DNA of 64,000 bases from Trichopria drosophilae (Eukaryota > Arthropoda > Insecta > Hymenoptera > Diapriidae), in contig CM059582.1 of NCBI GenBank assembly GCA_030407085.1, positions 88,464,001-88,528,000 of the forward strand, read 5' to 3'. How positions within the stretch are numbered: position 1 is the first letter of the stretch; every line of letters begins with the position of its first letter. The position numbers and the translations under genes were made by a program. Under the pieces are notes generated by a model. That model was not told the DNA's origin and did not search any database. It saw only the letters and a list, made by a program, of their open reading frames with translations. Of the stretch, positions 6,074 through 56,937 are shown piece by piece.

Positions 6074-7138
6074 ATTTTTAAAATTAACTTCATTTCATTT
6101 ATTAATTAATTTATCATTGAAAATTTCAAGCTACTTTCAGACGATTGAATATTATATTCAGTCGCCTGAAAGTCGCGTTTATTCATTTTTAATGTAAACT
6201 CTGAGAAACTTTAGAACCTCTAGAGTTACATTCGTTCCCAACGCCTGGGTGAGCTGGGAAATTTCGAGACAGACACTTTAAGTCGAAACATACGATAACG
6301 GCTGCTAAGGAATGCATGGAAAATCCTAGCATAAGCAACGTCTCATGGCGTCGGTTCATTCTGCGGCGTCGGCGGATCTCAGGGAGAGAGACGCAAGTCG
6401 TCACCCACCATGGGTCCTCCGACGGCTTCGACGCTTGGGCCCGACGTCGTGGACGTCACTTCGTTTCCGCCTCCGAAGCAGCCAAGTCCTCGGAGTTCAA
6501 GACAATCGTCGTGGAAAACGGGTCGCGCCTACACCAGGGTACAAAGTGCCGTAGACACTCGTTCAGGTCCTGCCCAGAGGTTCATCCGATCTCTGGTAGT
6601 TGTAAGTCATTCTAAAAACTAATTAATCAATCTTTTCCTGTTTCCATTTCCAGTTATTCGTGGATAGATCGCATGTGAGACAATATTCTAATTATAATTC
6701 GAGTTAATCAAATTTAAATCATTTACAGGTTTTCCTTTAAACCCTTTACCTTTTTCTAAAAACTCAAGGGAAAAACGATAGGCTCAGGCCATTTGGGGGA
6801 AAACCCTTTTATCGGATTCCCGAGGGAATACTAGAAAAACCCAACCTTTCAACCCTTTAGCCTATGCTCAGGCAAATAGGGCGTCACGCCCTTTAGGCTA
6901 TCTACCTCTACCAAAATCCTAGCAATTCTTTCCTATTGTTCTATATAAAATATATGCTTTTTACCATATAATAATCTCTAATTCTTTATCAAACCATAGA
7001 CAAAACGAGATATCAGGGCCCGTAGGGACTGATACCTCGTATTGGCAGTCTCCGTCCTCCGTTGCTAATTAGCGACGGAAACAGGGGAAAATAATTTTAT
7101 TCGACGGTTGCGTCCGGAGTTCATCTCCGAACGTAACA
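6074..7138 (+). repeat. 5' LTR (first about 19 bases missing)
   Basis: This matches 15611-16675 at a constant offset of 9537 with only a handful of substitutions and no net indel. It ends CCGAACGTAACA. The 3' copy starts TGTTATGTGCGAGCAC, but at the equivalent place (6055-6073) this copy shows satellite-like sequence. The satellite phase before the LTR and after the 3' LTR also does not join exactly: about 40 bases of monomer are absent. A small deletion or recombination therefore removed the extreme LTR start and flanking satellite, which explains why no target duplication can be seen. Confidence 0.92.
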
Positions 7139-7148
7139 GTCGTGAATT

Positions 7149-7166
7149 TGGTGTCAGAAGTGGGAT
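7149..7166 (+). promoter_or_regulatory. primer binding site, complementary to tRNA-Leu 3' end
   Basis: TGGTGTCAGAAGTGGGAT begins ten bases after the 5' LTR end. Its complement, ATCCCACTTCTGACACCA, is the 3' end of the eukaryotic tRNA-Leu(CAA) type including CCA, recalled from known tRNA sequences. Such an 18-nt match is the expected site for priming minus-strand DNA synthesis. The following leader, 7167-7650, has no ORF and contains a long A/T homopolymer stretch near 7530-7550. Confidence 0.85.
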
Positions 7167-7650: not shown

Positions 7651-9000
7651 ATGGCGACTCAACCACAACCCGCTGATGTATTAAATGCATCCATGACTTT
7701 AATGAATAATATGGCTGAAAGTTTCGCCCTTCAAAATAGTATATCGGCGATCCCCTATTTCGATGGGAAAAATATGTCCCTCAAAGATTTCATCCAGGAT
7801 GTAAGAAACGGTTCGGATTTCATTCCCGCGGAATCACAAGCCTCTTATGTAAAGGCTTGTCTTAGTAAATTGCAAGGCATCGCGAGAAACAGTACCTACG
7901 GAAAAACTATTAACACTATCGATGAGCTCGTAAGTCATCTAAAGAAACGGTTCGCGGCGGGAAAAACTTATTCCTATTACTTGCATGAGTTGGAAAATTC
8001 CCGTATGTATAGAACAGACACCGTAAGCGATTTTCGAGACCGCATTAATATCTTAGTCGAAGGAGCGAAAATAGCATTAGAAAAAGAAGTAACTGTAGAA
8101 AGAAATGCCCGGGCTGCGAATCTCGAAATTTTAAGTAAACCCTTGGAAATTACTGCGCTTAACGCTTTTATGCGAGGTCTACCCGACGATATCGTAGGAT
8201 TAGTAGATGCCAAGGATCCGAAAACCTTGGACGATGCTTGGGAGGCAGCTTTAAAAATCGAATCAAAAATAGAACAGGGAATTCTACCTGATTCCAGAAC
8301 ATCGCGTATGTTCTACTCTCGAAATCAGGTCCCATATAACGATAATCTGGAGTACAATAGACCAGGCATTTTACGTCAAAATAGGTATGATGATAGGAGG
8401 GTGAGATTCACTGAAGATAGGTCTCCATTTCAAAATCCATCTAGTTCGCGAATAGATCAAATCGCGAGAGGAGATCGAAAGTTTGGTGAGGGTGCATGGT
8501 CATACGACGGGTTGCCGGGACAAAGTACTTATTTAAATCACCCTTACGCACCGATACATTACCCCTATCAGCATCCCTATCCGCAGTACGCATTACCGCG
8601 AGAAATGTCGCCAAACCCAAGGGTCCCCCGTTCAAATTCGCCTCTAAATTTCTATGCTGCCGAAAGGTATCGCGAAAAATCGCCGGTTTCAACCCAATCC
8701 GGGTATGGATATCAGAGTCACCGGGACGAAAGAGAAAAGTCACCCTCTAATCAGTATTATCGTCGAGATTACCCCCGACGAGATAATCGCGAAGCCAGAT
8801 CACCGGTAAGAAGTCTATCACCGATCAGTCATCAATCAGAGTATAAGTCGCGAAACGAAAAGTTTTCGGATAACGGGTCTTCTCGGAGTAAATCCAACGA
8901 AGATATGACAAAAACGCCATATCGGGCGCGATCTCCTCAAAATTCCCGCGAAAATTCACCGTCCGCCGCAGATAACGGAAAAAATCATAATTTAAACTGA
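7651..9000 (+). CDS. gag: Gag polyprotein, intact
   Basis: A 449-residue protein starting at ATG 7651. The N-terminal two thirds have the helical Gag pattern of errantiviruses, with a PYFDGKNMSLKDFIQDV motif near residue 36, an FRDRINILVEGAKIAL segment near 130-145, and FMRGLPDDIVGLVDA near 175-190. The C-terminal part (about 245-449) is rich in Arg, Ser, Tyr and Pro and lacks CCHC zinc knuckles, as usual for this group, where a basic tail takes over RNA binding. It would assemble particles and package element RNA. It ends at TGA 8998-9000, directly behind a slippery heptamer. The frame is uninterrupted, in contrast to pol. Confidence 0.9.
   Translation: MATQPQPADVLNASMTLMNNMAESFALQNSISAIPYFDGKNMSLKDFIQDVRNGSDFIPAESQASYVKACLSKLQGIARNSTYGKTINTIDELVSHLKKRFAAGKTYSYYLHELENSRMYRTDTVSDFRDRINILVEGAKIALEKEVTVERNARAANLEILSKPLEITALNAFMRGLPDDIVGLVDAKDPKTLDDAWEAALKIESKIEQGILPDSRTSRMFYSRNQVPYNDNLEYNRPGILRQNRYDDRRVRFTEDRSPFQNPSSSRIDQIARGDRKFGEGAWSYDGLPGQSTYLNHPYAPIHYPYQHPYPQYALPREMSPNPRVPRSNSPLNFYAAERYREKSPVSTQSGYGYQSHRDEREKSPSNQYYRRDYPRRDNREARSPVRSLSPISHQSEYKSRNEKFSDNGSSRSKSNEDMTKTPYRARSPQNSRENSPSAADNGKNHNLN
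8991..8997 (+). promoter_or_regulatory. -1 ribosomal frameshift heptamer TTTAAAC
   Basis: The last gag codons read ..T TTA AAC TGA, exactly the X XXY YYZ slippery arrangement in the gag frame and immediately before its stop. A -1 slip leads into a frame that stays open from 8997 to about 9107. This is the expected way of making Gag-Pol. A downstream stimulatory structure was not assessed. Confidence 0.7.
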
Positions 9001-9079
9001 CTCGCTGGAACGATGCCGGCCCGAGTCGGAAAATCAGTCAAAATCAAACGGCGTCGGTGAGGTACTTGGAGTTATCCGA

Positions 9080-9658
9080 ATGCGAGGAGGAGAGTCTCCT
9101 GCGGTAGAATTGACTCATGATAAATTTAGGCTGCGAAAAGCTATGTTCTTAGTTGATACGGGAGCTGACATAAATCTCATTAAATTAACTGCCCTGCATC
9201 CAGATCTAAGAGTCTGGACTGACAATTCAATTAATATTTTCGGTATAACCCCGGACCCGATTAAAACGTACGGGACTATTAATGTTCAAATTTTTGATGA
9301 CCCGGTTCTTTTCCACGTAGTTTCCGCAAAATTTCCGATAGAATGCGATGGAATTCTGGGTAAAGAATTTTTACGGCAGGAAGAAGCCGAAATTTCCTTT
9401 AATCATCAAACTCTCGTAGTCAAAAGCCGTCCTATTCGACATTTTAGATTTATTGATTCCTATTCGCAGAACTTAATTGCTGCTAAATCATCTAAAAAAG
9501 CTCAACTATATTTTCTTAGAGCTAGAACGAAAGTCCCTATAGACGTCGTGTTAAACGAAACTCAATTAACCGAAGGATATTTACCGCTGGTGAAAACAAT
9601 TCCAGGTATTTTTATCGGCGAGGCCGCTGTCACTAGAAAGAACATTGTCGAGTTTTAG
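9080..9658 (+). pseudogene. pol: Pol, protease part (frame broken on both sides)
   Basis: The frame contains an aspartic protease active site, LVDTGADINLI near 9140-9175, and the later hydrophobic-GILGKEFLR flap/helix segment. Retropepsin would cleave Gag-Pol. It is not in the frame reached by the TTTAAAC slip. That frame runs to about 9107 and closes, so an indel lies near 9092-9105. A second frame change lies near 9650-9660, where this frame ends at TAG but the downstream pol frame is open. These are lesions of this copy and not part of normal expression. Confidence 0.85.
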
Positions 9659-9660
9659 CA

Positions 9661-10980
9661 ATAAATACCCTAGATCGCGATGTAGCATTAGGTTTAGATT
9701 CGCAAAATCTAATTCCATTCGAGTATCACAATTTCCAAGAAGAAAGTAAAATTCGTTATAGTTCTTCGGACGACGAGGACATAACCGGAGATAGAACCTC
9801 TAACATTATTAAACTCTTGCATTTAAATCACTTAAATAAAGAAGAGAAAGACCATATAATATCTTTAATTCATTAATTTCCAAATCAATTTTATTTGCCA
9901 GGGGATATTCTACTTTGCACTAATGTTATATCCCATAATATTCCGACGGTGGATAACATTCCAATAACGACCAAACAATATCGATTGCCGTCTATTCACA
10001 GGGACGAGATTCAAGATCAAATTCGAAAAAAATTGAGGAATGGAGTAATAAAACCCTCTCAATCGCCTTATAATTCGCCCTTGTGGATAGTTCCAAAACG
10101 ACCGGATTCGCAAGGAAAACCCCGGTGGCGTATGGTAATAGATTTTAGAAAATTAAATGATAAAACTATCGGTGACGGATTTCCAATACCACATTCCCTA
10201 GATATCATGGATTACCTTGGGCAGGCCCAATATTTTAGCGTATTGGACCTGGCCAACGGTTTTCAACAAATTCCGTTGAGTAAGGAAGATCGCGCGAAAA
10301 CCGCTTTTTCGACCCCTACAGGACACTATGAATTTATTAGAATGCCTGAGGGATTGAAAAATGCCCCCGCGACTTTTCAACGATTGATGAATCAAGTTTT
10401 AACGGGCTTACAAGGTACGGAAATGTTCGTGTACTTAGATGATATTATTGTTTTCTCGCGTAACTTAAAAGAACACGGTAAGAAAATGCGCAGATTATTC
10501 CAACGCTTGTCAGAGGCTAATTTAACCCTGCAACCTGACAAATGCGAGTTCCTACGGACAGAGGTAACTTATTTAGGACATATTATAAGTAAGGAAGGTA
10601 TCAGACCCAATCCTCAGAAAATTCACGCCGTGGAACACTTCCCGCGTCCCAAAAATGCTCGTGGAGTAAGGGGTTTCCTCGGACTAGTGGGGTATTATCG
10701 TAGGTTTATTAAGGATTTTTCGGCGCGAGCCAAACCAGTATCTATTCTAACGAGTAAAAATCATAAGTTCAAATGGACCGCAGCCCAAGAAGAGAGTTTC
10801 AACGATTTAAGAAACGCTCTTTGCCAGGATCCGGTTTTACGCTACCCCGATTTCAAAAAGCCATTCATTTTAGCCACCGACGCATCGGATATAGCGATCG
10901 GTGCCGTATTAAGTCAAAATTTTGAGGGTAAAGAACATCCTATAGCTTATCTGTCCAGAACCCTGTCAAATAGAAAGAGG
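9661..10980 (+). pseudogene. pol: Pol, reverse transcriptase and truncated RNase H
   Basis: The RT domain is easy to read: conserved entry LPGDILLCTN, YNSPLWIVPKR, DLANGFQQIPL, the FIRMPEGLKNAPATFQRLM block and catalytic FVYLDDIIVFS near 10430-10455, followed by connection motifs (GFLGLVGYYRRFIKDFS). The first RNase H strand is present with its catalytic Asp (LATDASDIAIGAVLSQ, about 10870-10915) up to IAYLSRTLS. There the sequence passes directly into env. An in-frame TAA at 9874-9876 separates the RT start from the upstream pol frame. Everything after the first RNase H part, including the whole integrase, is missing, so this copy cannot encode its own integration function. Confidence 0.9.
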
Positions 10981-12888
10981 ATGTTCGCTATCATCGTCTT
11001 CTGCCTGATTGGTGCTTCGGGGGTGGTCGGAATCAAATACGAAGTCAAGAACTTGAACAACGCTGGATTGTACTTCGAACGTATACATACTGCACGGATC
11101 AGACAAGGAGATTGGAAGCTAAATATTGCTTTGAATCTGAGCTCTTACTTTAATACATCTTTCGATCCTGTGAAAAGAATGAATCACGCCATCGATACAT
11201 GCCCTATGGAATCCGAAATAGATTGTAAAGCACTAGTGAACCCCAGATTGATGATCAAGAAAATTGTAAAGGATCAAGCAATGAGAGACAGAGTCAAAAT
11301 GTTCATGCAAGAATTGTGTTCTCCTTTATTGAAATCAGATGACGAAAAGGCTAGGAAGAAAAGATTAGTCCCTTTGGGAATCATTGGCAGCATAAGCAAA
11401 AGTTTATTCGGCACGTTAACAATAGACGATGCTGAATACTATAATTCAGAAATAGATAAATTATATTCAGATCAAAAAGATTTAGCATCTCTGATGCAAA
11501 AACAAACCCATATTTTTAAATCAAATTATGAAACTTTACAACAAAAAGTGGAAACCGGTGCATCACAAATTGACAAATTAGGAGAGATATTAACCAAAGT
11601 GAACCATCGATTAGTGCATATCACTACCATCAATGAATATACCATCGAATTAAACACGTATTTGGAAAACAGATTGGATATCGGACAAGGAATAATTGAT
11701 ATCCTCACCGCTGCAAAGGCAGGACAGCTACACCCTCTCCTAATAAATACATCAAGTCTCTCGAAAATTGTTCAAGATATTCAAGAGCGTTTGCGCGAGT
11801 TGGATGTCCCTATTCCTTTGACCTACCTACGTCCCGATACATTAGCATCTATATCTTCAGCAAAAGTTATTCATTATAAATCGAAATTACAAATAATTGT
11901 TACTTTCCCTTTATTGGCCAAGACTAAATATCATCTCTTTCATTTGCATTCCTGGCCTAACCCTCAATTTCAAAATAGCAAATATGTTTGCTCTGCTTTT
12001 GTGGAACCATTTGCTCGTTATCTCTTCCTATCCGCTGATCGCCGTGGTTATTTCTTTCGGGATGATTTAGCAATGTGCAGTGGCACTCCTTATCATTATA
12101 TTTGCGAATTAAATCAACCGCTAGAAATTATTGGACAAAATCTAAACTGTGAAATTGGACTTTTGGATTCTACGACTTTTAACATTACGGATAAGTGTAA
12201 TATGCAGTTAAAACAAGAACAAGGTGTGTTTTGGAAACGGTTGCGAACTACGGGAGACTGGTTATTTAGTACTTATGCTCCGGAAGAAATACATATCATC
12301 TGTTCGGAAAAAACTCAAAAGATAACCATCAATGGTACCGGAATACTTGCTTTCCCACAAGGTTGCACTGTTAAACAGGGCACTAGAATCTTACTAAACT
12401 TTCGAACTTTCATCGCGAGGCAAGAGTACTCGTACTCGCCTGAAACATCTCTGGATTTGTCACCTCAAATCTCTAACCTATATCAACATGATGAAATAAA
12501 TGATTGGAAATTTACAAGTGGAAAATTAAAAGACTTTTCAAGTAAGGATACAAAAGGCTACTCTCTTCAGGAAATAGAGACTAGATTGGAAGAAATCAAA
12601 AATCACCATAGAACGAATCAGAATACTCGTAATTTACTCTATGGTGGAGCCTTCGTAAATTTGATCATTATTTTAATCCTAACTATTATCATATGGTGGT
12701 TATGGAATCGTAGAGGTAAATTACATTTTCGATCTATAAAAACTACAAATGTGGAGCCCAAGCGAATGTCAATTAATCCACAGTGCACACATACATCGCA
12801 AGAAGAAATTGGTGTTGACGATCCTGTGAATATTACTCCATTCATATCCATGCAATTGCAGAGACAAGAAGCAATGGTGGATCATTAA
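10981..12888 (+). CDS. env: envelope protein, fused in frame behind pol
   Basis: About 635 residues from ATG 10981. The N-terminus is a hydrophobic signal peptide (MFAIIVFCLIGASGVV). A furin-type site RKKR lies near 11350-11365, followed by a small hydrophobic, glycine-bearing segment (LVPLGIIGSISKSLFG) in the position of a fusion peptide. Heptad-like stretches (about 11430-11700) follow, then a Cys-rich region, a transmembrane segment near 12655-12700 (FVNLIIILILTIIIWWLW) and a short basic cytoplasmic tail. This is the layout of errantivirus Env, related to baculovirus F proteins. The frame is uninterrupted and continuous with the RT frame because of the pol deletion. In intact relatives env is made from a spliced RNA; whether that works here is unknown. 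Confidence 0.88.
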   Translation: MFAIIVFCLIGASGVVGIKYEVKNLNNAGLYFERIHTARIRQGDWKLNIALNLSSYFNTSFDPVKRMNHAIDTCPMESEIDCKALVNPRLMIKKIVKDQAMRDRVKMFMQELCSPLLKSDDEKARKKRLVPLGIIGSISKSLFGTLTIDDAEYYNSEIDKLYSDQKDLASLMQKQTHIFKSNYETLQQKVETGASQIDKLGEILTKVNHRLVHITTINEYTIELNTYLENRLDIGQGIIDILTAAKAGQLHPLLINTSSLSKIVQDIQERLRELDVPIPLTYLRPDTLASISSAKVIHYKSKLQIIVTFPLLAKTKYHLFHLHSWPNPQFQNSKYVCSAFVEPFARYLFLSADRRGYFFRDDLAMCSGTPYHYICELNQPLEIIGQNLNCEIGLLDSTTFNITDKCNMQLKQEQGVFWKRLRTTGDWLFSTYAPEEIHIICSEKTQKITINGTGILAFPQGCTVKQGTRILLNFRTFIARQEYSYSPETSLDLSPQISNLYQHDEINDWKFTSGKLKDFSSKDTKGYSLQEIETRLEEIKNHHRTNQNTRNLLYGGAFVNLIIILILTIIIWWLWNRRGKLHFRSIKTTNVEPKRMSINPQCTHTSQEEIGVDDPVNITPFISMQLQRQEAMVDH

Positions 12889-13400: not shown

Positions 13401-13846
13401 ATGGCTTATCAGTTCGAAAACGAAGGCCTTACTCCAGCACTAGAAGCAACTGGCGTGAGCCTTTCCCGTATTTTCATAGGGGCAAGGGAGGCTAATCCAC
13501 GAGAAAGAAGAGTTGAGGGAAAGGAACCCCGAAAGGAAATACCTACTTCTAATATTGATGATATACCGGTTCACACATTGAAGATTTGCAATATTAATCC
13601 TTATAAAACAAAAAAGGTACGCGAGTATTTAGCTTGTTTCGGAAAAATCACTAACTTCAAGATATATCAGCAAAAACCAGGTAACACCGCTACCGCCAAT
13701 GTTACCTATGAGTCTGGTTCGAATGCCCTAGCTGTTCAACAGGCAAGTGAGCAGAACAAATTATTGCATGAAGGTAGAAAGCTCAAGGCTATTCCTGCGC
13801 ACATTCATCAGCAGTATTACAAAAAAAGGGACAAAGGACAGGAAAT
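13401..13846 (+). pseudogene. RRM-domain gene captured in the retroelement, N-terminal part
   Basis: ATG at 13401 in strong context (CACCATGG). After about 50 residues with a basic linker comes one RNA-recognition motif: RNP2-like TLKICNINPY near residue 62, a helix KKVREYLACFGKITNFKIYQ, RNP1-like region ATANVTYES near 98-106, and a final strand HEGRKLKAIPA. The layout parallels the RRM of the gene at 39571-37916 and the RRM/F-box family annotated in other animals as EEED8.10-like. The coding sequence is interrupted at 13821 by a SINE; the natural frame resumes after it for about 26 codons and stops near 14380. It lies between env and the 3' LTR, where errantiviruses normally carry no gene. 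Confidence 0.75.
13805..13820. repeat. SINE target site duplication, left copy
   Basis: TCATCAGCAGTATTAC, identical to 14293-14308 on the other side of the SINE. A 16-bp perfect duplication is typical of LINE-mediated insertion and fixes the SINE borders at 13821 and 14292. Confidence 0.93.
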
Positions 13847-14292
13847 TTTCCCCCGCGTTAATGACGAATATGTCTGTTTGCGGGTCGGCTCTCGGGTGGA
13901 GAGGTACAGGACAGAGACAGACAGTACAAGACAGAACTATAGGCACACACAACACCCACCCAGAGCCAGTCCCCCCTACCCCAATATCGGTACCACCAGC
14001 AGATTCGACGGTCTGTGCCTTAGCGAGTACGACGCGGGGCTTATCCCATCTTTATCCGAGATAAGACCCACGACATACCGACCGCGGATAAGACGCTGAC
14101 GGTACGATAACTGCCGAAGGGGTCGGCAGCGGTCCCAAATTCGTACCTTCGCCCAGCAAAGTTCCCCGGTTATTCCACACTGGACATAAGCAGAGAAAAT
14201 TGCAGGACGGGGATTCGAACTCGGGCCCTTCGCGACGTTCAGTTCGGGCGGACTAAGACTGACGCCTTAGCCCGCACGACCATCACGCCGAC
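13821..14292 (-). mobile_element. tRNA-derived SINE, full length, inserted in the RRM gene
   Basis: The element is read on the minus strand from 14292. It starts GTCGGCGTGATGGTCGTGCG, has a tRNA-like head with a long variable-arm style (TAAGGCG...), and a perfect B box GTTCGAATCC (14220-14211 on the minus strand). A conserved body follows, ending in GTCCTTTG and a T-rich tail at 13827-13821. The head resembles Ser/Leu class tRNAs. It lies in the opposite orientation to the host gene and is flanked by 16-bp target duplications. A second, head-truncated copy lies at 32912-33352. Confidence 0.9.
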
Positions 14293-14308
14293 TCATCAGC
14301 AGTATTAC
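14293..14308. repeat. SINE target site duplication, right copy
   Basis: TCATCAGCAGTATTAC, identical to 13805-13820. Confidence 0.93.
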
Positions 14309-14399
14309 TATCTGAAACAACAACATGGAAAATACAAGCAAACATTAAAACATGATAAAACCTTATTACTGCATGCTATCTAATCATCATAACTTACAA

Positions 14400-14937
14400 A
14401 TTTTCAAAGCTGCAGGAGTTCTGTGGGTGGATGATGGATTATTGAGAACAATCGGAGTCAAATTAACCCAACTCTTTGGATTTGGAACTTCCACGGTGTC
14501 CTAGGTTAACGGATGTGGGATTACAGTACCTTGCAAAATTAAGAGTCGAAAAATTGTTAGTAGACGGGTCTTCATTGAATCTAGCTGGTTGTACAATTCC
14601 GTGCTTACCCTTTTTGGAAACGTTGGGAATTAGAAAATGTCCTGGAATATCCGCTAAAGGATTCTATAAAATCTTAAAAAGTTGCCCTCTTCTCAGAAAC
14701 ATCGACGTAAGATTAAATTACAACCTAGAACCCAGCAGTATTTCAAATTCCGCACTTGGATTCGGACCAAAAGTTAAAAGAACATCCCCTTGGTGATTAA
14801 CAATAAATGAATTACCAAGAGGAAAAATAATCGACAACAAATACTGCAAATTCTATGCTGACCCGTATCAATATAAATACGAAGTTCGAATACCCAACCC
14901 TTTTGATCCAGTGGAGTTGATAGCAAGATGGACTTAG
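14400..14937 (+). pseudogene. leucine-rich-repeat C-terminal part of the captured gene
   Basis: From about 14476 the frame encodes cysteine-containing leucine-rich repeats of the F-box/LRR type (LPRCPRLTDVGLQYLAKL, LAGCTIPCLPFLETLGIRKC, ILKSCPLLRNIDVRL). A TGA at 14794-14796 interrupts it, after which the same frame stays open to a TAG at 14935-14937 with a non-repetitive tail (YCKFYADPYQYKYEVRIPNP). Together with the upstream RRM this makes an RRM...LRR gene in which the F-box region expected between them is missing or unreadable at 14308-14400. It resembles the RRM-F-box-LRR gene on the minus strand at 39.6-37.9 kb. Confidence 0.7.
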
Positions 14938-15578
14938 AATCAATAACAACGTAACCAGAGACAACGAACGAGTGATAACATCAACCACGAATGAAGATGT
15001 GATCCGAATCAGGGTTCTTTCAGGTCAATAGCATATTAGCAACTTTCCTTTTTCAGTAATATATATATTCATAGTACCAACTGGACTCAAAGGAGTATGA
15101 CTCAGGCCAATGTTCCTTATGGAATGATATTCTGGAGAGACTAGGTTAGGAATATGAAATATAATTTTAACTTATTTCCTGAAAGAATGTCGTGCGTAAT
15201 TGTATATTCATCGGTTGAAATATTGAAAATGTGAATTGATTACGAAGTTACCGGATAGTGTTAATTAAGTCATGGAAGCTAATTTGTAACGCGATTCATC
15301 AAAGATCAAATATTGTAAGCAATGTATCATACCAAATCCTAACCATACCCTATCTATCCATATAAGAGAAAACTTAGGGGAGACTTGTAAAGATGAGATA
15401 ACCTAGAGTTAGCACGCGGAGAATTATCGTGTCTCAAGTGATTGTTCAAACTCGCCCAACTTCCATTTTTTTTATTATACAATCGTTTTCAATCTTTGAT
15501 ATGTTTTTTCTCATGGTTTGTCTCGGGTTTTACAGCCCAACCCCTGTGTATTAACATTGTCGAGGACGACAACACATT
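14938..15578 (+). other. 3' untranslated part of the retroelement
   Basis: No ORF. It includes the typical errantivirus-like segment CATTGTCGAGGACGACAA (15557-15574) just before the polypurine tract. Confidence 0.6.
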
Positions 15579-15591
15579 AAGGGGGGGAGGA
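15579..15591 (+). promoter_or_regulatory. polypurine tract
   Basis: AAGGGGGGGAGGA directly before the TG of the 3' LTR; it would prime plus-strand DNA synthesis. Confidence 0.9.
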
Positions 15592-16675
15592 TGTTATGTG
15601 CGAGCACATTTTTTTTAAAATTAACTTCATTTCATTTATTAATTAATTTATCATTGAAAATTTCAAGCTACTTTCAGACGATTGAATATTATATTCAGTC
15701 GCCTGAAAGTCGCGTTTATTCATTTTTAATGTAAACTCTGAGAAACTTTAGAACCTCTAGAGTTACATTCGTTCCCAACGCCTGGGTGAGCTGGGAAATT
15801 TCGAGACAGACACTTTAAGTCGAAACATACGATAACGGCTGCTAAGGAATGCATGGAAAATCCTAGCATAAGCAACGTCTCATGGCGTCGGTTCATTCTG
15901 CGGCGTCGGCGGATCTCAGGGAGAGAGACGCAAGTCGTCACCCACCATGGGTCCTCCGACGGCTTCGACGCTTGGGCCCGACGTCGTGGACGTCACTTCG
16001 TTTCCGCCTCCGAAGCAGCCAAGTCCTCGGAGTTCAAGACAATCGTCGTGGAAAACGGGTCGCGCCTACACCAGGGTACAAAGTGCCGTAGACACTCGTT
16101 CAGGTCCTGCCCAGAGGTTCATCCGATCTCTGGTAGTTGTAAGTCATTCTAAAAACTAATTAATCAATCTTTTCCTGTTTCCATTTCCAGTTATTCGTGG
16201 ATAGATCGCATGTGAGACAATATTCTAATTATAATTCGAGTTAATCAAATTTAAATCATTTACAGGTTTTCCTTTAAACCCTTTACCTTTTCCTAAAAAC
16301 TCAAGGGAAAAACGATAGGCTCAGGCCATTTGGGGGAAAACCCTTTTATCGGATTCCCGAGGGAATACTAGAAAAACCCAACCTTTCAACCCTTTAGCCT
16401 ATGCTCAGGCAAATAGAGCGTCACGCCCTTTAGGCTATCTACCTCTACCAAAATCCTAGCAATTCTTTCCTATTGTTCTATATAAAATATATGCTTTTTA
16501 CCATATAATAATCTCTAATTCTTTATCAAACCATAGGCAAAACGAGATATCAGGGCCCGTAGGGACTGATACCTCGTCTTGGCAGTCTCCGTCCTCCGTT
16601 GTTAATTAGCGACGGAAACAGGGGAAAATAATTTTATACGACGGTTGCGTCCGGAGTTCATCTCCGAACGTAACA
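15592..16675 (+). repeat. 3' LTR, complete (1084 bp)
   Basis: It starts TGTTATGTGCGAGC and ends GAACGTAACA, so the termini TGTTA...TAACA are a 5-bp inverted repeat. It is nearly identical to 6074-7138; differences seen by eye include A/G at the AAATAGRGCG site and C/T at CGTTGYTAAT. The satellite resumes directly after it (TAAGCTAGCATCTC). Confidence 0.95.
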
Positions 16676-35788: not shown

Positions 35789-37915
35789 AATAAAATTATA
35801 TCACCCAGTCAAAAAACATAAATTGTACACTGTAATAAAAATCTTCGTACATACACTTCACAAATATTAATAATAAATCCCGACTCTAATTGAACTATAA
35901 TGTAGTTGGATTACAAAATAGGCAATATGTGCCGTCAAAAAAATACGTTATACAAACACTGTCAATCACAAACAATTTTTGCACTAAAGACGTTAGAACG
36001 TTAATTCGAAAAAATCCTATGCAAAGAATTACGCAAAAAATAAAACAGGCATTGCAATCAAATAAATATAAAGTGATTCGTCGGGAGCGACTCGTAAATA
36101 CGTCCGACTAGTACGACAACAAACGATCGATGATTTATTGATTGAATTAATCCGAGATAAAAAAATACTTTCTGAATTCAGTATTTGATTTAATTGTGTT
36201 GTATTCTTCATTAAATAAGGAACGAAATCCGGTTTAGTAATAGTTGGTGCCTTACGTAGAACTCTGCTAACATCAACGCAAACAGTATTACGTGTTTGTG
36301 CCAATGGATCAAAGACTCATTTTCTATCAGCACACCATAACGGCTGCCTGGAAACAGTTGTAAGGTATTGACAATTTTTGTTAGGCCTGTTTTGAATAAT
36401 ATATCATTGGGTATATGTCAAATTTGACGTTGCAAGTGAAAAATCAGTGTTTTAAAATTAACCCTTTGAAGCGTACATTTTTTCTTTACGCGAAAAATAG
36501 CTAAAATTTGTTACTCGGGGGTTTTCGGGGTCGCTGAATAAGAATCATACCTCAGATTTTTAAAATTCTAAATGGCAGATCCAGTATGACCGTCTAAAGT
36601 GTAAGAAGTTACTCGATCAAGACGAAACTGGGTATGTGAGAATTTTTGGACTCGCTGATTACGAATCTAACTGCAGATTTTGAAGACTGAAAATGACGGA
36701 TCCACGAAAGCTGACCAAAATGTAAAAGACTACTTGATCGAAATGTGACATCGCATCTCATATTATTGAGATACTTGTAATATAAATTTTATTTTAATTT
36801 TCCTTTAATAGTCACGGCATTTAAGCAATTTACTGGGATCAGGATAATGAACACGAATTTAGAGATACGCCGATTAGAGGTTACCTCAAGCTCATAGCTT
36901 CAAGATCGTATCCTTATTTAGAATACTTCCAGCCATTTAGTTGTGAACGTAAAGGTTATTTCAAATTTTGTTACAACTCAATTCACTATTATTAATATTA
37001 GTATTAGTTTTGAATTGTTATTATCACTTGATTGATGTAATTATTTTAATAATAATGTGATTTGTATTATTTACATCTCTCTTGAGAACTGCAGGAGTTT
37101 TTCATTATTTTTAATATAATGTTCGTTTCCTCATTTTCATGGAAAATCTGTCATATCTTCTGCTGTTTCGTCTGTATGTTTTTCAAAAGTTCATTACATG
37201 GGACGATTGAAAACTTAATAAAATATGCAGGCAACTTTAAACGAAATTTCCCCTCGAAATGCTGTCAATTGTTTTTAATCTCATGTATAGAATAAAAGTC
37301 TATGAATTATCTTAAATATTTGATATCATATAATCAATTTTTGACAGATACAATAAATTATTCTCAATCGTTATTCGGATTTAAATTATAATTTAGGTGG
37401 ACAAATATTCAGAAACAATTTTATTTGAATCGAGAGAGAACAAAATGCATATGGTTATTTTTTTTTATTCATGGATTGTTACTACTATATTCTGTTCAAT
37501 ACAAATATTCAATTACATGAAATCCCGCAATATGCGTTGTAACAACAACATAAATTATTATATATATAAAAAAAAACAGAACCAAACGATTCGCTAGACG
37601 TTCTGGTAGAAGTTTCAAGATCATTAAGACATGACGGGTATCTAACATAATACAAAAGTACATGTCATTCTTAATATTTGGTTACTTCTTGAAAATCTGA
37701 AATAAAATAAAGATTACAGAAAGTATATATACTGAGACGGGGACATTTCATAAAACAGAAGTATGTCTAGTATATTTACTTTAGAATAATAGAAAATCTT
37801 CATGAGTAATAATTCTTATGCCATGATAATACAAAAAAATATTGAGCTGTAGGAAAATAAGTACATAAAGACGGGGACAATTCACAAAATCAAAATATGT
37901 CCGAATGTATTCACC
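35789..37915. other. no gene recognised; one repeat-module remnant
   Basis: Mostly AT-rich. At 36459 TTAACCCTTTGAAGCG starts a segment to about 36740 that resembles the interior of the piggyBac-like element at 29.6-30.4 kb (TTACTCGGGGGTTTTCGGGG, TCGCTGA, then GATTACGAATCT), so this is probably a remnant of a related element. The short frames at 35890-36111 and 37397-37597 show no domain. Confidence 0.4.
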
Positions 37916-39571
37916 TTATATACGTAGAGATGTCCGAACATAGTGGATATCAAGAAGAAAATTTTTCCTATCCTTCTTATGATGGCGAGCTTCTGTTCCT
38001 CCTAAATATAAAGACAAGAGAGTGCTTCTGTCAAACATACGCAGCGATTCATAGGCACAGTTCACAACTTCCCTACCAACATGAACACATCCTTCAATAT
38101 CCAGGTGACATAAATGCGGTGATGATCTTAATAACCCACAAATTTCTTCCCCACTAATACCATAACAATCGCGAGCTTCGAAAGTGCACAATGTCAAGGA
38201 GAGGTATAAGAAGGTGGCAGCGATATTAGGTCGAAGCATCGACATCCTCAGTACTTCCAATTTATTTAAATTCGAGAGCGGCTCTAGCCCAAAATCATCG
38301 CGAATATTTGAACATCCCGTGATGTCCAAGATCTTAAGCAAGGGTAAATTTCGACCAACTCCGCTAACGAAAACATCATCCACCAAAGGACAAAATCTGA
38401 GCTCCAGAATTTGTAAATTTGTACAAGTTGAAGTCATCTTCAGTCCTTCGATCCCTAATAGGACATTGGGAAGCTCAAAAAACGGGACAGCATCGGCCGG
38501 ATCCGCCTCTTCGCCATTCATTTCCTCTTCATTCATCCCATTATTTATCCCTAATCCTGGTGCTTTGAGAGAGCGTAAAGCTCCTGGGTTATTACAATTA
38601 GCTAGAGCTTCAAGAACATTAGGACCATTAAAATTTTTTCCTTTAACTATTTTTAACTCCTCTAAATGTTCTTGAGTTTTCAGAAATAAAGTCAGCTCTG
38701 AGGAAATCAATCGATCACAATTATCGATCTGCAACCGTGTTAACTGGAGATTTGATCCATTAAAACACTTTCCGGTTACTTGTGAAGCCGAAAAAGACAC
38801 TCTTTATCTGCTTGTTTTCACAAAATATCCGGTGCAGATCGTTTTCGATAGGTCCGATTGTCTTACCCAAAACAAGACTTCGCAACTGCTTTCTCTCCCA
38901 CCCAAAATGATAAATGTAGTGGGCCGAATAACTACTCCAGCCAGATCAAGATGTTCAAGTCTAGGGCAATGTGTAGCTATGATGGAACCTACTTGTGACG
39001 GAAAATCATTACGAAGTTGCAAAGCCCGCAGATACCGCCCAGCTCTCCGAACAACCCAATATACCGCATCAATCGTTATTTGAGAATTGTCCCAAGACCT
39101 GTTCCACATTTCCGACGAATCTGACAATGTTGTTACCAACCTATATGACGCGATAGCTTCGTCTCGCCACCTTCTTGACACTCTTTCAAGACAAGCTCGA
39201 TCCGGAAATGAAAGATATGAAGCTATCATAGCTATGCATTCTACAGGTAGAATACTAGCGAGTTCTTCTTGTATTTCATATTCGATGCGAGCTGGGGCTT
39301 TTCTTAAAGAACCACGAAGATTCCAAGAATCAGCGGGTTTAATGACGAGTTTACGTTTATGAAGGATGTATGGACATTGATTACTCTTTTCCAGGACTCG
39401 AAGGGCCTGTTCAGGAGTAGCAAAAGTTATAAACGCTACATTGCCAGTAGCTCGCTTATGTACGTAAGCATTTACAACTCCCTCATCCTTAAATTGAGAA
39501 ATAAGATATTTACTCGTCGTATAAGGTGCCAATCGGGATAGAAATAATCGATTAATCCGTGACGTATCCAT
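37916..39571 (-). pseudogene. RRM - F-box - LRR protein, one in-frame stop
   Basis: The minus-strand frame from ATG 39571 is 552 codons long and interrupted by one TAA at 38804-38806. N-terminal RRM (residues about 6-80: INRLFLSRLAPYTT, then GNVAFITFATPEQALRVLEK). F-box at about 108-145 (LPVECIAMIASYLSFPDRAC then LERVSRRWRDEA). Cys-containing LRRs follow on both sides of the stop (CPRLEHLDLAG; LTRLQIDNCDRL; LQILELRFCPLVDD; LKILDITGC; LCHLDIEGC). F-box proteins recruit substrates to SCF ubiquitin ligases, and an added RRM suggests an RNA or ribonucleoprotein link. The architecture equals the EEED8.10-like family. The stop could reflect recent decay or a missed short intron; no GT-AG pair tested by eye preserved the frame. 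It starts 64 bp after a gypsy integrase stop on the same strand. Confidence 0.75.
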
Positions 39572-39595
39572 CTATTAAAGAAAAGGAACAAAGCA
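39572..39595 (-). promoter_or_regulatory. splice-acceptor-like tract abutting the start codon
   Basis: On the minus strand, GTTCCTTTTCTTTAATAG ends exactly at the ATG of the RRM-F-box-LRR frame. A pyrimidine tract plus AG in this place, just after an integrase gene, mirrors how errantivirus env is expressed from spliced RNA. Function is inferred. Confidence 0.4.
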
Positions 39596-39637
39596 AAAAA
39601 AAATATAAATAAATAAATTATTTTCCAACACATCATT

Positions 39638-40415
39638 TTAATCGTTACAAGTTAACTTAACTTTATCAACATGTTTGATAAATCTTTTTCCATTTTCATC
39701 TTGCAAAATTAAATTATTTTTTTCTAAAACGTCAACAATTTTATAATTTCCTTTATATTTCGGTTGAAATTTCCCTGGTTTAGGCTCTATCATAATTCGA
39801 ACATTATCTCCAATTTTTCCTTTAAATCTGTTACATTTGAGATCATATCTCATTTTAGATTTATTTTTTTCTAAAATTAAGTTTTTGCCTGCTAAAATCT
39901 GCATTTCGGTCAATCATGAAATTAAATCAGATAAATAAGTATTATAAGCTATAAATCCGTCATTATCAGGGAATGAACTTGGGCATCTGGCCACTCTCCC
40001 GAATACTAACTCAAACGGTGTAAAGTTTGTAGCTTCGTGAACTGATGTATTACAAGAAAACATAGCAAATGGTACGAGCATGTCCCAGTACGTATATTTA
40101 TCAAGGTAATGACTAATATATTCAGTAAAAAATATGACTTCTTTCTAAACTTCCGTTGGTTTGAGGTCGATATCCTGATGTCGTAAGAGGTGCTATTTTA
40201 AAAATTCGCATTAAGGCTTTCATCAACTTCCCAATAAAAATTGCACCTCTATCTGTTAGTGTAACTCTAGGAGCTCCATATAAAAGTATAAATCTAGTTA
40301 CAAAAGCATGTGCAATTGTCTCTGCTTTTATATCAGGGACCGATACTGGAACACAATATTTGGTCAGATAATCCTGCATTGTTATGATGTATAACATATA
40401 AGCAAATAAGAACAT
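39638..40415 (-). pseudogene. pol: gypsy/errantivirus-type integrase fragment
   Basis: The minus strand encodes the integrase core: MQDYLTKYCVPVSVP with the first catalytic Asp (about 40385), VTLTDRGAIF (second Asp, about 40265) and YRPQTNGSLERSH with the catalytic Glu (about 40165). A frame change lies near 40125; the C-terminal part (AMFSCNTSVHEATNFTPFEL region, then MRYDLKCNRFKGKIGDNVRI) continues with an in-frame TGA near 39914 and ends at 39638. No RT or LTR could be found on either side, so only this piece and the downstream gene remain. Its sequence type is that of errantiviruses and close gypsy relatives. Confidence 0.85.
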
Positions 40416-41680
40416 GAAGAAATGAAACTTTTATTATAATAACTATTTTCCATTACGTTAGACTGATCGACTGCAACTTTTATGCTCACATGTTTTATAA
40501 GCATACATGAATATTATATGAAAAAATTCACAATATTCTCAAAAAATGCATTAAATGTTTTGAACGTTTTTCCAATTCGATAGAATTTTTGGTTAGGTCA
40601 TTTTTTGCCCAAATAAGGTGCAAATTTTTGTAGAAAATTTTAAAAAATCGAAAAAAATTTGTGAAAAATGTATAATGTTGTAAGCAATTTATTTCTAGTA
40701 GTCATTTTTTTATTTTTATCAATTTGAAAATTTGTCGTAATATTCTTCAGTTTTAAAGTATTTGCACCGAATTTGGGCCAAAAATAACCTAAACAGAAAT
40801 TCTACCACTTTGGAAAAATTTCCAAAGGATTTATTGGATTTGTTATGAATTTTTTCAGAATTTTCGGGGCGTTTCTTGCAATTTCGAGGTCATTAATAAA
40901 AAAGAAACATTGAAAAAATCATGTAAAACCATGTACAAAATTTGCATCGAAATGTGAAGGGGTGGAGTTAACGGATTGGTCGAGTTAGCATGGAATGTCT
41001 CATACATATGTATACATTAGGTTGCTTTTTATATGCAAGTGGATTGAATTACTTTATTTTGTACAGACGCAGGGATCGATGAAGAAATTTTTTTGGAAAT
41101 AAATTATGAACTGTTAAATAAGCTTTTTACGCCTGCAGAGTGTGGCTTTTAACTAAAATTTGTAATGCGTATGAAAGCATGGAATGAACTATGTGCTAAT
41201 ACTAATACTAATTAAGTTTTGCCAGTAATGACGTCTTTAGCATGTAATGAATCACCAAGATTGACACCTTTAGCATGTAATGAATCACCAAGATTAGATG
41301 GAATCATTGACACTGGTACCTCAACCACGTTTACTTATTCGAACGAGCCCAACATGTCTGTTGCTGCTGTGTTGTGTATGTTATGTGTATTTCTTGATAT
41401 TGTATAATTGCCCGTACGCGAAAAAGTATGAACAGTTCACGAATTGAACCCTTTGCGACACATCGGGACTCTCAGAGTCCCACCTCTGTAATAATCTTAT
41501 TTTGTGATTTTATCATATAAATGAATATCAATATCGACAAATTTGGTAAATATAGCATCCTAAGGCCTTTAATAATAAGACTCAGAATCATAATTTTTAT
41601 TTCTGTTAATACTATTTTTTATATAAATATACAAAGTTGAATAAATGGGGTTCTCTTTGAATAAATTCATTTTTTAAGAA
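40416..41680. other. AT-rich stretch without a recognised gene
   Basis: No domain on either strand. A 28-bp unit TTAGCATGTAATGAATCACC(AAGATTGA) is present twice near 41238-41295. Confidence 0.4.
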
Positions 41681-45521: not shown

Positions 45522-46441
45522 GTATGGTAAATAATAAAATTATGAACGGAAATTATTTTTGTATAATTCGATGTCTACTGATAGAATGTATACTATATGT
45601 TAAGCAGAACCAATATTGCCGCTTTATTCTGCTTGCCCAGAGTTTTAGGCACTATTTTACGGAAAAGAAAAAGCGGTCCTACCTTTGGAACTGAGATCAA
45701 TGAAGTTCAAAATTCATTTATTGCTATTGTAATGGTAAGACTTTTATTTCTAATGTTTCAAGCATAAATCATTCATATAGGGGGAAGGGGGGAATGGCGA
45801 ACAGTTAAGGCTAAGTCGATATTTCCCTATGAAAAATGATGGAACTGAAAAAGTCGTGAAAAATAATGTAACTAAAAATTGAAAACATAATATTAATAAT
45901 TTGACATATCTATCATATTATATTAATCATATTAAATTGACATATCAATAAATATTAATTCTTAAAACATTAGTCATCTGTACCTAAATAGTATTTTATA
46001 TGTTTAAAACGAAATTGATGAAATTGCATTTGTATGATAAAGCCTTAATTTCATTTAAAAACGTTCTTAACTTCATTTTTCGTGGTATTGGTTAAGATAT
46101 TGAGTAATTGGAAATATTGATAAATATTAACACGTTTATTGCTTGTTGTAAATGTGTTCGAATTACACCATTTTCATGTCATTACTCCAAACCACAACAA
46201 TTTAGTAACTTCAATATATTAGGATTATCTTGTTCTCTTTTACATGCATATAAATTTTATATCGAAGAGCTAATTAAATAAGAAAAACGATCCAAGCAGT
46301 TTTATGAATTTTTGTGTGATTTATATTTCTGAAAATGCTATTCCCTATCTAGAAAAATTGTAAGAAAATTTGAGAAAACACACAAGTTCTTTTTTTATAC
46401 TTGAAGTGAATTGTTAAATAATATATTAACTAAAATTACGG
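45522..46441. other. AT-rich stretch without a recognised gene
   Basis: No domain. It contains a purine run GGGGGAAGGGGGGAA near 45780. At its right edge GGGAAATCACCGC occurs twice in tandem (46440-46466), where the gypsy sequence starts. Confidence 0.4.
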
Positions 46442-46454
46442 GAAATCACCGCGG

Positions 46455-48676
46455 GAAATCACCGCTTTCGCTGTCGCAGGCCGAGGGCTCTACCATTTCA
46501 AGCGGATACCCTATGGCCTGACGAATGCCCCAGCAACGTTCCAACGTCTGATGGATTCGTTGTTCGGTCCGGAGTTCGAGCCACATGTCTTTGTGTACCT
46601 CGACGACATCATAGTTGTGAACGAGTCGTTCGAGGACCACCTCAGTTGGGTGTGTAAGGTCCTGGAGACCATTCTGAGAGCCGATCTTCAGATCAATCGC
46701 GAGAAACGCGAGTTCTGTTGCACCAGTGCCGTTTATCTCGGATACCGAGTTGATCGGGAAGGATTACGGCCCGATAAGGAGAAAATCCGCCCAGTGTTAG
46801 AATACCCCCCACTGCGGACGTTAAAGCAAGTTCGACGATTCCTCTGTATGGTGGGGTGGTATGCGCGATTCATTCCGAATCTGGCGGAGAAGCGATTGCC
46901 CCTCACGAAGCTAACGAGGAAGGATCAGCCGTGGGAGTAGAGCGAAGAACAGGAGGAGGCGTGCGAGTCGCTCAAGACAGCACTGACGGAGGCTCCAGTG
47001 CTAGGACAGTCCGATTTCAGCCGCCCGTTCGTGTTACAAACGGACGCGAGCGACTATGCACTCGGCGCCGTATTGACGCAAGCGCAAGATGACGGAGAAC
47101 ATCCGATCGTCTATGTAAGTCGCACCCTCACTGCCGCCGAGAAGAACTATTCGACGACGGAGAAGGGGTGTCTGGCGGTAGTGTGGGGCGTGAAGAAGCT
47201 CCGGGCGTATTTGGAAGGATACTCGTTCGAGGTCATCACAGACCATAGTAGTCTGAGGTGGCTCCATAACCTACGAGACGCGATGGGGCGACTCGCAAGG
47301 TGGGCCTTGGAGTTGCAAGGCTGGAATCTCAAGATCTGGCACAGGAAAGGAGTATTGCACCATGTCCCGGATGCTCTTTCCCGGAGAGTCGAAGAAGACG
47401 TTTGTGCCATGAGAATTGCCTCCGAGAGGGATGATTGGTACGAACGGAGGAGAAAATTAGTCGAGGATCATCCTGAGCGTTTTCCAGGGTGGAAAACCGA
47501 GAACAGTACGTTGTACCATGCACGGTCGGATCCGTTATTGGATCCGGTGACAGGCGGAGAGAACCGTTGGAAACTAGTGCTACCAGTAGGCTTACGAGAA
47601 GAGGCACTAGGAAGCGCCCATAAAGAGGCCCACTCCGGACATTATGGCGTGGAGAAGACATATTGTCGACTGGCGGCGGAGTATTACTGGCCCGGAATGC
47701 GTTACGACATACTTCAGTACGTGCGCGGATGCAGCGCATGCCAGATGCAGAAAGCATCCCACAGCGGCCCACCCGGGCTAATGGGACAACGAGTGGTCGA
47801 GAAACCGTGGTCGGTTGTATCCGCCGATAACATGGGCCCAGCCGGGGACAGAATCTGTATGTCTTGGTGTTCACCGATATGTTCACGCGGTGGGTGGAAC
47901 TTAAGGCGCTAAGGACGGCCGATGGCAAAAATATTGCACGAGCATTTGAGGATCTCGTCTTGTTCCGATGGGGAACTCCGGAGTACTTGCTCACCGACAA
48001 CGGTAGGGAGTTCCGGAACGACGTCATGGACAAAATGCTCCATGAGTGCGGCGTGCGGGCGACAACTACCCCGCCGTACCATCCTCAGGCTAACCCGGTG
48101 GAGAGAACGAACCGAACGCTTAAAACTATGATTCGAACGTTCGTCGGAGGTGATCACCGGGATTGGGACCTGCACTTGCCCGAATTTCGGTGTGCGATAA
48201 ATACGGCCGTCCACGACAGTACAAAGGTGTCGCTAGCCTTTTTGAATTTCGGCCGTCAGCCCGTGGCGGTCAAGAGTTTACGGCGAAGATTGGAGGGGGG
48301 AGCCCCTATCCTGTGCGTCGAACCAGAAGACTGGACTGACCGCATGAAGCGGTTAAGCGCCCTCCGCGACCTAGTGCGTCGGTATCAAGACCGAGCATGC
48401 GAGCGCCAGCGTCGTAGCTATAATCGTGGCAAACGTCACGTTCAATACCATGTAGGCGATTTAGTTTTGCGCAGAAGTGACGTTCTGTCGTCGGGAGTAG
48501 ATCGGTTCGTCGCGAAACTCGCGCCGCGCCACGAGGGGCCGTTCCGTATCGTCCGCATTATTTCTCCGATCGTGTACGAGTTAGAAGGAGGGAGCGGCCG
48601 GAAGGTAACAAAGACACACGTGTCAGAATTGAAACGGTACGTTGCACCTCGTGGGTCTCGGCGCGTCGAGAATTAA
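46455..48676 (+). pseudogene. pol: gypsy-type Pol: RT, RNase H and integrase, 5' truncated
   Basis: The frame starts abruptly within RT (FAVAGRGLYHFKRIPYGLTN), then catalytic FVYLDDIIVV near 46590. A TAG at 46938-46940 interrupts the connection domain. RNase H follows (LQTDASDYALGAVLTQ, then VITDHSSLRWL and HVPDALSR), then the HHCC zinc region (HYGVEKTYCRLAAEYYWPGM, CSACQMQK) and, after a frame change near 47850-47865, the integrase core (VFTDMFTRWVEL; LLTDNGREF; YHPQANPVERTNRTL) and C-terminal domain to 48676. GC content is much higher than the surroundings. It is closely related to, but not the same as, the minus-strand gypsy element at 50.6-63.8 kb. Confidence 0.9.
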
Positions 48677-49450: not shown

Positions 49451-49562
49451 TGTAACGGAACGTTACACCGGCGGACCTGTTACGTTCGCCGTCGTGGAAG
49501 TGCGGACGTTTCGAATAGTTCGTGCGTTTTCGTGACGGTCTGGTATTACAGGAACGGCCCTT

Positions 49563-50061
49563 CCCCCCACCCCCCCCCCCCCCCACCCCCCCCCCCCCCC
49601 ACCCCCCCCCCCCCCCACCCCCCCCCCCCCCCACCCCCCCCCCCCCCCACCCCCCCCCCCCCCCACCCCCCCCCCCCCCCACCCCCCCCCCCCCCCACCC
49701 CCCCCCCCCCCCACCCCCCCCCCCCCCCACCCCCCCCCCCCCCCACCCCCCCCCCCCCCCACCCCCCCCCCCCCCCACCCCCCCCCCCCCCCACCCCCCC
49801 CCCCCCCCACCCCCCCCCCCCCCCACCCCCCCCCCCCCCCACCCCCCCCCCCCCCCACCCCCCCCCCCCCCCACCCCCCCCCCCCCCCACCCCCCCCCCC
49901 CCCCACCCCCCCCCCCCCCCACCCCCCCCCCCCCCCACCCCCCCCCCCCCCCACCCCCCCCCCCCCCCACCCCCCCCCCCCCCCACCCCCCCCCCCCCCC
50001 ACCCCCCCCCCCCCCCACCCCCCCCCCCCCCCACCCCCCCCCCCCCCCACCCCCCCCCCCC
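49563..50061. repeat. C15A minisatellite, 16-bp period, 31 A positions
   Basis: A lone A recurs every 16 bases from 49569 to 50049 with only C between them, so the unit is fifteen C plus one A and is identical in every copy. The minus strand is (T G15)n, with extreme potential for G-quadruplex formation, and the plus strand for i-motifs. All six frames are open because 16 is not a multiple of three and no stop is possible; the polyproline or polyglycine frames are therefore not genes. Whether the copy number is real or an assembly effect cannot be told from the sequence. Confidence 0.95.
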
Positions 50062-50106
50062 AACAAAGATCGTGGTATTCAGAGGTGGTGGCCCCCTTAC
50101 TGCTGC

Positions 50107-56400: not shown

Positions 56401-56724
56401 GTTTAATGAGTGCGGGGTGCCGTTGTGGCTACTCCACGCATTATTCTCGGTATCTATCTTCAGGCCGAAGAGGCACATAAAATCCATCCCCAACACGCAT
56501 GCATAGTGGATGGGGGCTACTCTTATTTCCAAATTTCGCGTATGACTATCTACCGTCATCGCGAGGGTAACGACACCATTTAATGGGACTAGCGCACCAT
56601 TGGCAATTCTTACTTGTGCCTCACTTGACCTTAGGAACGGCGAAACTACCTCCCGACACGCGAGGCCTAAATAAGAGCGCGACGCTCCGGTATCAACGAG
56701 TGCCCTTATTATCTTCCCATTCAA
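53410..56724 (-). pseudogene. pol: gypsy Pol: protease, RT, RNase H, integrase, with AT-hook-like tail
   Basis: Minus strand. Protease VDTGASRSYLG near 56690, RT with DLSQAYFQAPVAP, FKRMPFGLTNAPATFQRL and catalytic FAYLDDIIIA (about 55845), RNase H (DASDFAIGAVITQ, ITDHSSLQWL, NVVPDALSRM), HHCC zinc region (GHLGVDKTYHRLIQDFYWPG; CPACQKQK), integrase core (VFQDMFTKYVEV; FLSDNAKQYDN; ALNTAVQSSTRMTPVFLNFG) and C-terminal domain. A tail has two AT-hook-like motifs, RRCGRPSK and RRRPGRPR (about 53660 and 53540), which could guide integration. Lesions: frame changes at G11 55619-55629, near G6 54583-54588 and at G15 54341-54355; stops near 55431 and 53923-53925. Confidence 0.88.
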
Positions 56725-56937
56725 AGCTACGCGAAAGTGGGGGCGAGGGTCCGAATCTAGTGTCCATTGATTATCTTCGCAAGAATCTATGGACTCGAAC
56801 CCGATGTTCAGCCCTCTGGGCTTAGGGGTTGCCGAAGCGATCCGTCTCTTTTCAACATTTTTTTCTATCCGGCTTGTCGTAGGGGTGATCGGGGATGGGA
56901 TTGTAAGGGGGGGTTCAGGGGTTTCCTTGCCCCCCCG

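Follow-up and report, generated by a model that had tools for sequence, protein, structure and literature searches.

A truncated Ty3/gypsy element in Trichopria drosophilae belongs to a multi-copy lineage whose env position holds an RRM-F-box-LRR gene

The minus-strand feature analysed here, part of a 64,000-nucleotide stretch of the Trichopria drosophilae genome that we call the window, is a truncated copy of a multi-copy Ty3/gypsy lineage. In this lineage the env position behind the integrase is occupied by a third open reading frame, ORF3, encoding an RRM-F-box-LRR protein of about 550 aa. Two arrangements exist in the one genome: the gene as ORF3 without a detectable env, and an env followed by a homologous gene as ORF4. 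The best overall explanation, and one we hold to be likely, is a truncated copy of this gypsy lineage whose ORF3 is a probable SCF adaptor, perhaps acting against a host RNP factor. The parts of the window copy and its 3' surroundings are as follows.

37916-40392, minus strand: window copy of the ORF3 lineage, a 5'-truncated and decayed Ty3/gypsy member
39638..40392, minus strand: 3' part of a gypsy integrase, with a DD35E core lacking its 5' end and a C-terminal part ending in a stop (Pfam rve, repeat comparison)
39572..39637, minus strand: spacer of 66 bases, pyrimidine tract plus AG abutting the ATG, a likely 3' splice site
37916..39571, minus strand: ORF3, the RRM-F-box-LRR gene, 552 codons including the final stop (family profile and Pfam)
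39380..39547, minus strand: RRM, residues 9-64 (Pfam RRM_1, E 0.001, slightly under the Pfam cut-off)
39158..39253, minus strand: F-box, residues 107-138 (Pfam F-box-like, E 2.7e-7)
37919..38945, minus strand: LRR half of ORF3, including a frame-shifted stretch (family profile)
37531..37915, minus strand: 3' untranslated part of the element common to other copies, reaching 37531 in one copy, with a further piece to 37455 in another

ORF3 of the window copy runs from an ATG at 39571 to a 3' end at 37916 with no intron seen, and its two same-frame halves, separated by a single in-frame stop at 38804-38806, score 227 and 220 bits against a profile built from 18 relatives. A stretch within 38763-38945 fits the family in another frame (20.6 bits, family profile), indicating two nearly compensating frameshifts and hence a decayed gene. 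RRM_1 scores 19.2 bits against a curated cut-off of 20.7 and the Pfam LRR matches also fall under cut-off, while Pfam, the family profile and the fold model of a relative together place an F-box ahead of LRRs in ORF3, the order by which FBXL proteins are recognised. On the integrase side, the open frame at 40415-40122 (minus strand) matches Pfam rve (E 8e-5) with D-35-E spacing, and the integrase carries one frame change and one stop; its C-terminal piece ends with a stop at 39638. The original prediction had read an integrase ending at 39638 and an ORF3 start codon directly behind a pyrimidine tract plus AG, both of which hold, and had given the spacing as 64 bases, which we correct to 66. 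In a PHROGs scan one integrase piece matched three transposase families and one family of unknown function, and the other matched none. The repeat common to other copies starts at 40392, and no LTR pair was found around the window copy. G+C content is 30.8% in the integrase piece versus 41% in ORF3, a gap that could be explained by the cassette exchange discussed below. A palindromic, MITE-like repeat of about 346 bases lies just upstream of the truncated integrase, at 40519-40864.

The pairing of integrase and gene recurs throughout the source genome (one genome, 936 Mb in 509 contigs), where the RRM-F-box half has at least 153 matches. We read 33 copies directly: the eight best matches (the window's included), eight chosen for open frames and diversity, sixteen chosen for divergence and one pol-less candidate. 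In this selection, made by us and, like that of the ten flanked loci described below, favouring open frames and intact gene starts, 30 of the 33 have an integrase immediately upstream in the same orientation (one of the 30 being a weak C-terminal match) and one has it about 1.8 kb upstream; none was found upstream in the other two. A count by coordinates, less dependent on our choice of loci, starts from the integrase closest to the window's: of the best 150 integrase matches among 3460 candidates, 86 are followed by the gene on their own strand within 2.5 kb, with 73 of those 86 genes placed 529-705 bases from the integrase core domain; among the best 90 matches the number with a gene downstream is 74. 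As a control, the wrong side or strand yielded a gene for 0 of the 150. This count used 131 distinct gene places among the matches listed, with second pieces of a locus dropped, plus 42 of 46 env-lineage gene rows. Counted in reverse, 86 of the 131 gene places have an integrase among the best 150 of 3460 and 45 do not, although direct reading finds one at 6 of these 45, weakly matched in one case.

The window copy itself belongs to one repeat in which integrase, spacer, gene and 3'UTR follow each other colinearly from 40392, at 94-96% nucleotide identity with three subfamily copies and 82% with a fourth. This order, recurring in subfamily copies and genome-wide against an empty control, bears out the original claim that the association exceeds chance. 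That claim was to fall if no other locus placed pol next to such a gene, and within this one genome many do; its alternative, an integrase fragment inserted alone beside a resident gene, is not borne out either, window integrase and gene being parts of the same repeat.

Two intact family members of 598 and 588 aa, at about 206.83 Mb and 210.59 Mb of contig C2, are candidates for domestication. The former has no integrase within 5.9 kb upstream and no LTR pair when 4 kb downstream is included, and the latter no integrase within 4 kb upstream. They may be domesticated or orphaned; we considered them as a basal host progenitor of the family and rejected this, both nesting inside the clade of the genome's element-borne genes.

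Ten loci with an open ORF3 were fetched with their flanks, four of them searched farther upstream than the others, and these reveal the complete element. ORF3 is open in all ten (543-567 aa between stops), integrase is present in all ten, PR and RT in eight and gag in seven, and the pol frame reaches at least 1534 aa in five. One pol frame that we scanned contains protease, RT, RNase H, H2C2 and integrase domains. LTR pairs, the outer boundaries that the original prediction proposed to record alongside the upstream integrase, occur at five of the ten loci; their 99.5-100% identity over 195 to 990 bases marks some insertions as young. The LTRs end in TGTTA..TAACA, with 4-bp target duplications at three loci. 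At five loci the 5' LTR leads into a primer-site-like sequence, of which there are two kinds (TGGTGTCAGAAGTGGGA at three loci, the other at two), and at three loci the 3' LTR has a polypurine tract in front of it. LTR pair with target duplication, PR-RT-RNaseH-INT order and primer site with polypurine tract are the hallmarks of Ty3/gypsy elements, and the ORF3 elements display them. An env behind pol, the errantivirus hallmark, is found in the env-bearing lineage of the same genome and not in the ORF3 elements: the window's env as query matched none of the ten loci at E 1e-3. A gypsy lineage with an RRM-F-box-LRR third ORF, as originally proposed, is thus supported by integrase adjacency, LTR pairs, target duplications and gag-pol matches.

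In seven loci measured, an AG behind a T-rich tract stands 0, 3 or 11 bases before the ORF3 ATG, and further copies have a similar signal. This placement makes a spliced subgenomic RNA the probable message for ORF3. Available passages of PMC5408684 describe the ORF3s of LTR retrotransposons as typically made from spliced messages.

An env-bearing relative occupies 6075-16675 of the window, with the following parts.

6075..7138, plus strand: 5' LTR, matching the 3' copy at 99.4% identity along 1064 bases
7149..7165, plus strand: likely primer binding site, identical in sequence to that of three among the five ORF3 loci inspected
7651..10981, plus strand: gag frame, protease, RT and part of RNase H, the rest of pol including integrase being deleted in the window copy
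10984..12888, plus strand: baculovirus-F-type env (Pfam Baculo_F, E 3.5e-33)
13401..14793, plus strand: ORF4, the ORF3 homologue, reduced in this copy to a recognisable RRM and part of the LRR, and broken by a SINE (~13830-14292) and a deletion
15578-15591, plus strand: polypurine tract before the 3' LTR
15592..16675, plus strand: 3' LTR, start placed by eye, 15612-16675 matched

The RT of the ORF3 elements is about 60% identical to that of this element, and their gene products are homologous. The degraded ORF4 in the window matches the ORF3 family profile weakly in the RRM (E 0.33) and at E 0.001 in the LRR, and the model of its RRM piece at 13.4 kb, predicted from a single sequence, is poor (pLDDT 49.8), with an RRM-like strand-helix order; a fold search with this model gave no match at E 0.001 and some RRMs at E near 0.1. 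Elsewhere in the genome, open ORF4 copies (596 aa in one case and at least 638 aa in another) show full-length homology to the ORF3 family (profile E 1.5e-23 over 494 columns; BLAST E 4e-17). The 638-aa copy, which is diverged, has an F-box (E 7.6e-7); in the 596-aa copy Pfam found neither F-box nor RRM_1. The ORF4 RRM has 46 genome matches. An env lies upstream of the ORF4-type gene in four of four returned loci, the window's included, and four diverged ORF4 loci have integrase, env and gene in that order, the env being truncated in one. Eighteen of the best 150 integrase matches have an ORF4-type gene within 5 kb, and none of these 150 has both gene types beside it. Integrases of the env lineage form one clade (100/100); the tree does not resolve those of the ORF3 elements as a second clade. 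The original description of the ORF3 locus as mirroring the case at 13.4 kb therefore survives for the homology of the products and fails for the arrangement, the 13.4-kb gene being an ORF4 behind env and the gene in hand an ORF3 without detectable env.

The env-bearing copy has no integrase and carries a SINE, yet its LTRs are 99.4% identical; though defective, it may have been mobilised in trans. Its RNase H-env joint was considered as a reverse-transcribed splice product and rejected, since at the joint, compared with another copy, there is a shared word of 4 bases and a GT donor is lacking. A satellite array of about 180-base units flanks the element on both sides (3781-6117 and 16675-18643). 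The window further contains an open frame at 18636-19772 with a type B DNA polymerase domain of organellar or viral kind (E 8.7e-26), perhaps from a Polinton-like element, and a short-period tandem repeat at 49500-50080 with several frames open and proline-rich or glycine-rich translations. Two more gypsy pol sets of high G+C lie at 46434-48676 and 53410-58763; the former's integrase shares only 22-30% identity with the integrases of the ORF3 elements.

Protein searches returned 20 clear family members (P0001-P0020), with Anthophora, Andrena, Halictus and Lasioglossum among the named hosts. Two of them, from Andrena cerasifolii and Halictus rubicundus, are annotated 'putative RNA-binding protein EEED8.10'. 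The bee family is homologous to ORF3 from end to end, the window copy being 32% identical to Anthophora protein P0002. In a 16-row alignment of 15 relatives and the window copy, the F-box is matched in 15 rows and RRM_1 in 14 (E up to 0.01, best 1e-9). The predicted structure of P0010, the closest aligned relative (38% identical; mean pLDDT 81.9), has an RRM-like strand/helix order, F-box helices and LRRs, and its top fold match is FBXL2 from its SKP1 complex; by sequence profile FBXL2, FBXL17 and SKP2 rank first among solved structures. No relative was found in collections of viral contigs and genome contigs, both drawn mainly from microbes and their viruses. A further protein search, whose query alignment had a first row largely out of frame, gave two LRR proteins only, judged unrelated. 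It is plausible that the bee EEED8.10-like genes could be relics of the element lineage, in which case a class of genes annotated in bees may really belong to transposons.

Selection on ORF3 was estimated from pairwise Nei-Gojobori dN/dS at dS near 1, pairs involving subfamilies C and E being saturated and near-identical pairs uninformative. Ratios were 0.17-0.24 in 11 diverged, unsaturated pairs within subfamily B or between A and B, and 0.5-1.0 in three pairs of old subfamily A copies. Judged from these coding sequences, the gene behaves as if under selection while its element is active and freed from it once inserted, and at least 40 of the genome matches listed keep a stop-free frame of 480 aa or more. 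There is good support for regarding ORF3 as a functional, selected gene of the element. ORF3 also seems to be passed between elements as a cassette. One pair of elements is 91-99% identical across the integrase; identity drops to 60-76% over the spacer and most of ORF3, then recovers to 93-100% at the ORF3 3' end and beyond. The integrase and ORF3 trees also conflict for the same element.

The simplest history would have the RRM-F-box-LRR gene gained by an env-bearing ancestor before the two lineages split, with env then lost in one branch, because the related lineage has both an env and a homologous gene behind it. Expressed from a putative spliced RNA, ORF3 would supply substrate recognition to an SCF ubiquitin ligase, its F-box binding SKP1/CUL1, its LRRs forming a substrate scaffold and its RRM docking on RNA. 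Domains and predicted fold indicate that the protein probably acts in such a ligase. Its likeliest target would be a host RNP factor that limits the element, with small-RNA silencing complexes as the obvious candidates, a proposal we make tentatively and would not back at even chances. Ovarian somatic piRNAs act against gypsy elements in stingless bees and other insects, according to available passages of PMC13172572. More doubtful is the full scenario, in which a captured SCF adaptor opposes host RNA silencing, its alleles are swapped as cassettes in an arms race, env was replaced as the branch turned intracellular, and the bee EEED8.10-like genes are copies or domesticated descendants.

One alternative is that ORF3 helps to export, package, translate or localise the genomic RNA of its own element, with the F-box-LRR part as a plain protein-binding scaffold. 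An RRM suits the binding of element RNA and purifying selection on ORF3 would fit as well, but the near-constant F-box and a SKP1-bound FBXL as top fold match point to a ubiquitin ligase, and we regard an own-RNA role as a serious but rather unlikely alternative. ORF3 might instead limit superinfection or copy number, or be en route to host domestication, which the two intact copies without pol nearby would suit; as both of these fall inside the clade of element-borne genes, and as self-limiting elements are expected to be outcompeted (an argument made in available passages of PMC5408684), we consider this improbable. The position of ORF3 alone would also allow a strongly diverged envelope-like protein. 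The strongest hydrophobic stretch of 19 residues scores 1.0-1.9 in five ORF3 proteins against 2.6 in the real env, and in subfamilies A and B it falls at the F-box; with domains and fold of intracellular kinds besides, we give this idea almost no credence.

Retroelements do capture unrelated ORFs, and in the available passages of PMC5408684 the ORFs of rotifer LTR elements show no significant departure from neutrality, so a functionless passenger picked up by template switching deserves mention. It is made highly unlikely by the low dN/dS between subfamilies A and B, by the many copies retaining a long open frame, and by the presence of the gene in diverged subfamilies and in the env-bearing lineage. 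The remaining alternative is a host F-box family lying by chance beside gypsy fragments in a transposon-rich region. Named bee proteins do fall into groups that broadly follow the genus and family of their hosts, in one bee three gene models on a 2.4 Mb contig carry closely spaced locus numbers, and two copies in our genome have no pol nearby; against this, a single integrase-spacer-gene-3'UTR unit stands at several places, integrase accompanies 30 of the 33 copies read, and LTR-bounded copies with target duplications, together with the 0/150 control, contradict a chance association, which we find scarcely credible.

Among known systems, insect errantiviruses (gypsy/ZAM) are alike in LTRs, gag, PR-RT-RH-INT order and a third ORF after integrase with a likely splice acceptor. 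They differ in bearing env, whereas no env was detected in the ORF3 lineage and its third ORF is the RRM-F-box-LRR gene; the related lineage of the same genome, with its baculovirus-F-type env, is errantivirus-like. The result is an apparent case of env replacement with both arrangements inside one genome. In bdelloid rotifers, as available passages of PMC5408684 relate, LTR retrotransposons likewise carry a non-env ORF3 in the env position, lineage-specific and common to several elements; these encode a GDSL esterase or DEDDy exonuclease, unlike the protein here, and 'F-box' and 'RRM' have no mention in the main text of that source as available. The bee EEED8.10-like proteins, homologous along their length to ORF3, are known here from proteins alone. 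A literature search, which left out Chary and Hayashi (2025, eLife), found no report of a retroelement RRM-F-box-LRR ORF of this kind.

FBXL2, FBXL17 and SKP2, the top profile and fold matches, share the order F-box then LRR with ORF3; to our knowledge FBXL proteins have no N-terminal RRM and are not encoded by mobile elements. Accessory genes that hijack ubiquitin ligases are familiar from vertebrate retroviruses, and as far as our literature search shows none has been reported from relatives of insect errantiviruses. The element family described here suggests such a takeover of part of the cell's protein-disposal machinery, and ORF3 offers a concrete, testable candidate mechanism by which insect endogenous retroviruses could act on the RNA-protein defences of their hosts. 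The retroviral genes Vif, Vpu and Vpx redirect cullin ligases, and polerovirus P0 acts through an F-box against silencing; we liken ORF3 to them by predicted function alone, the gene here being FBXL-like, with an RRM and LRRs.
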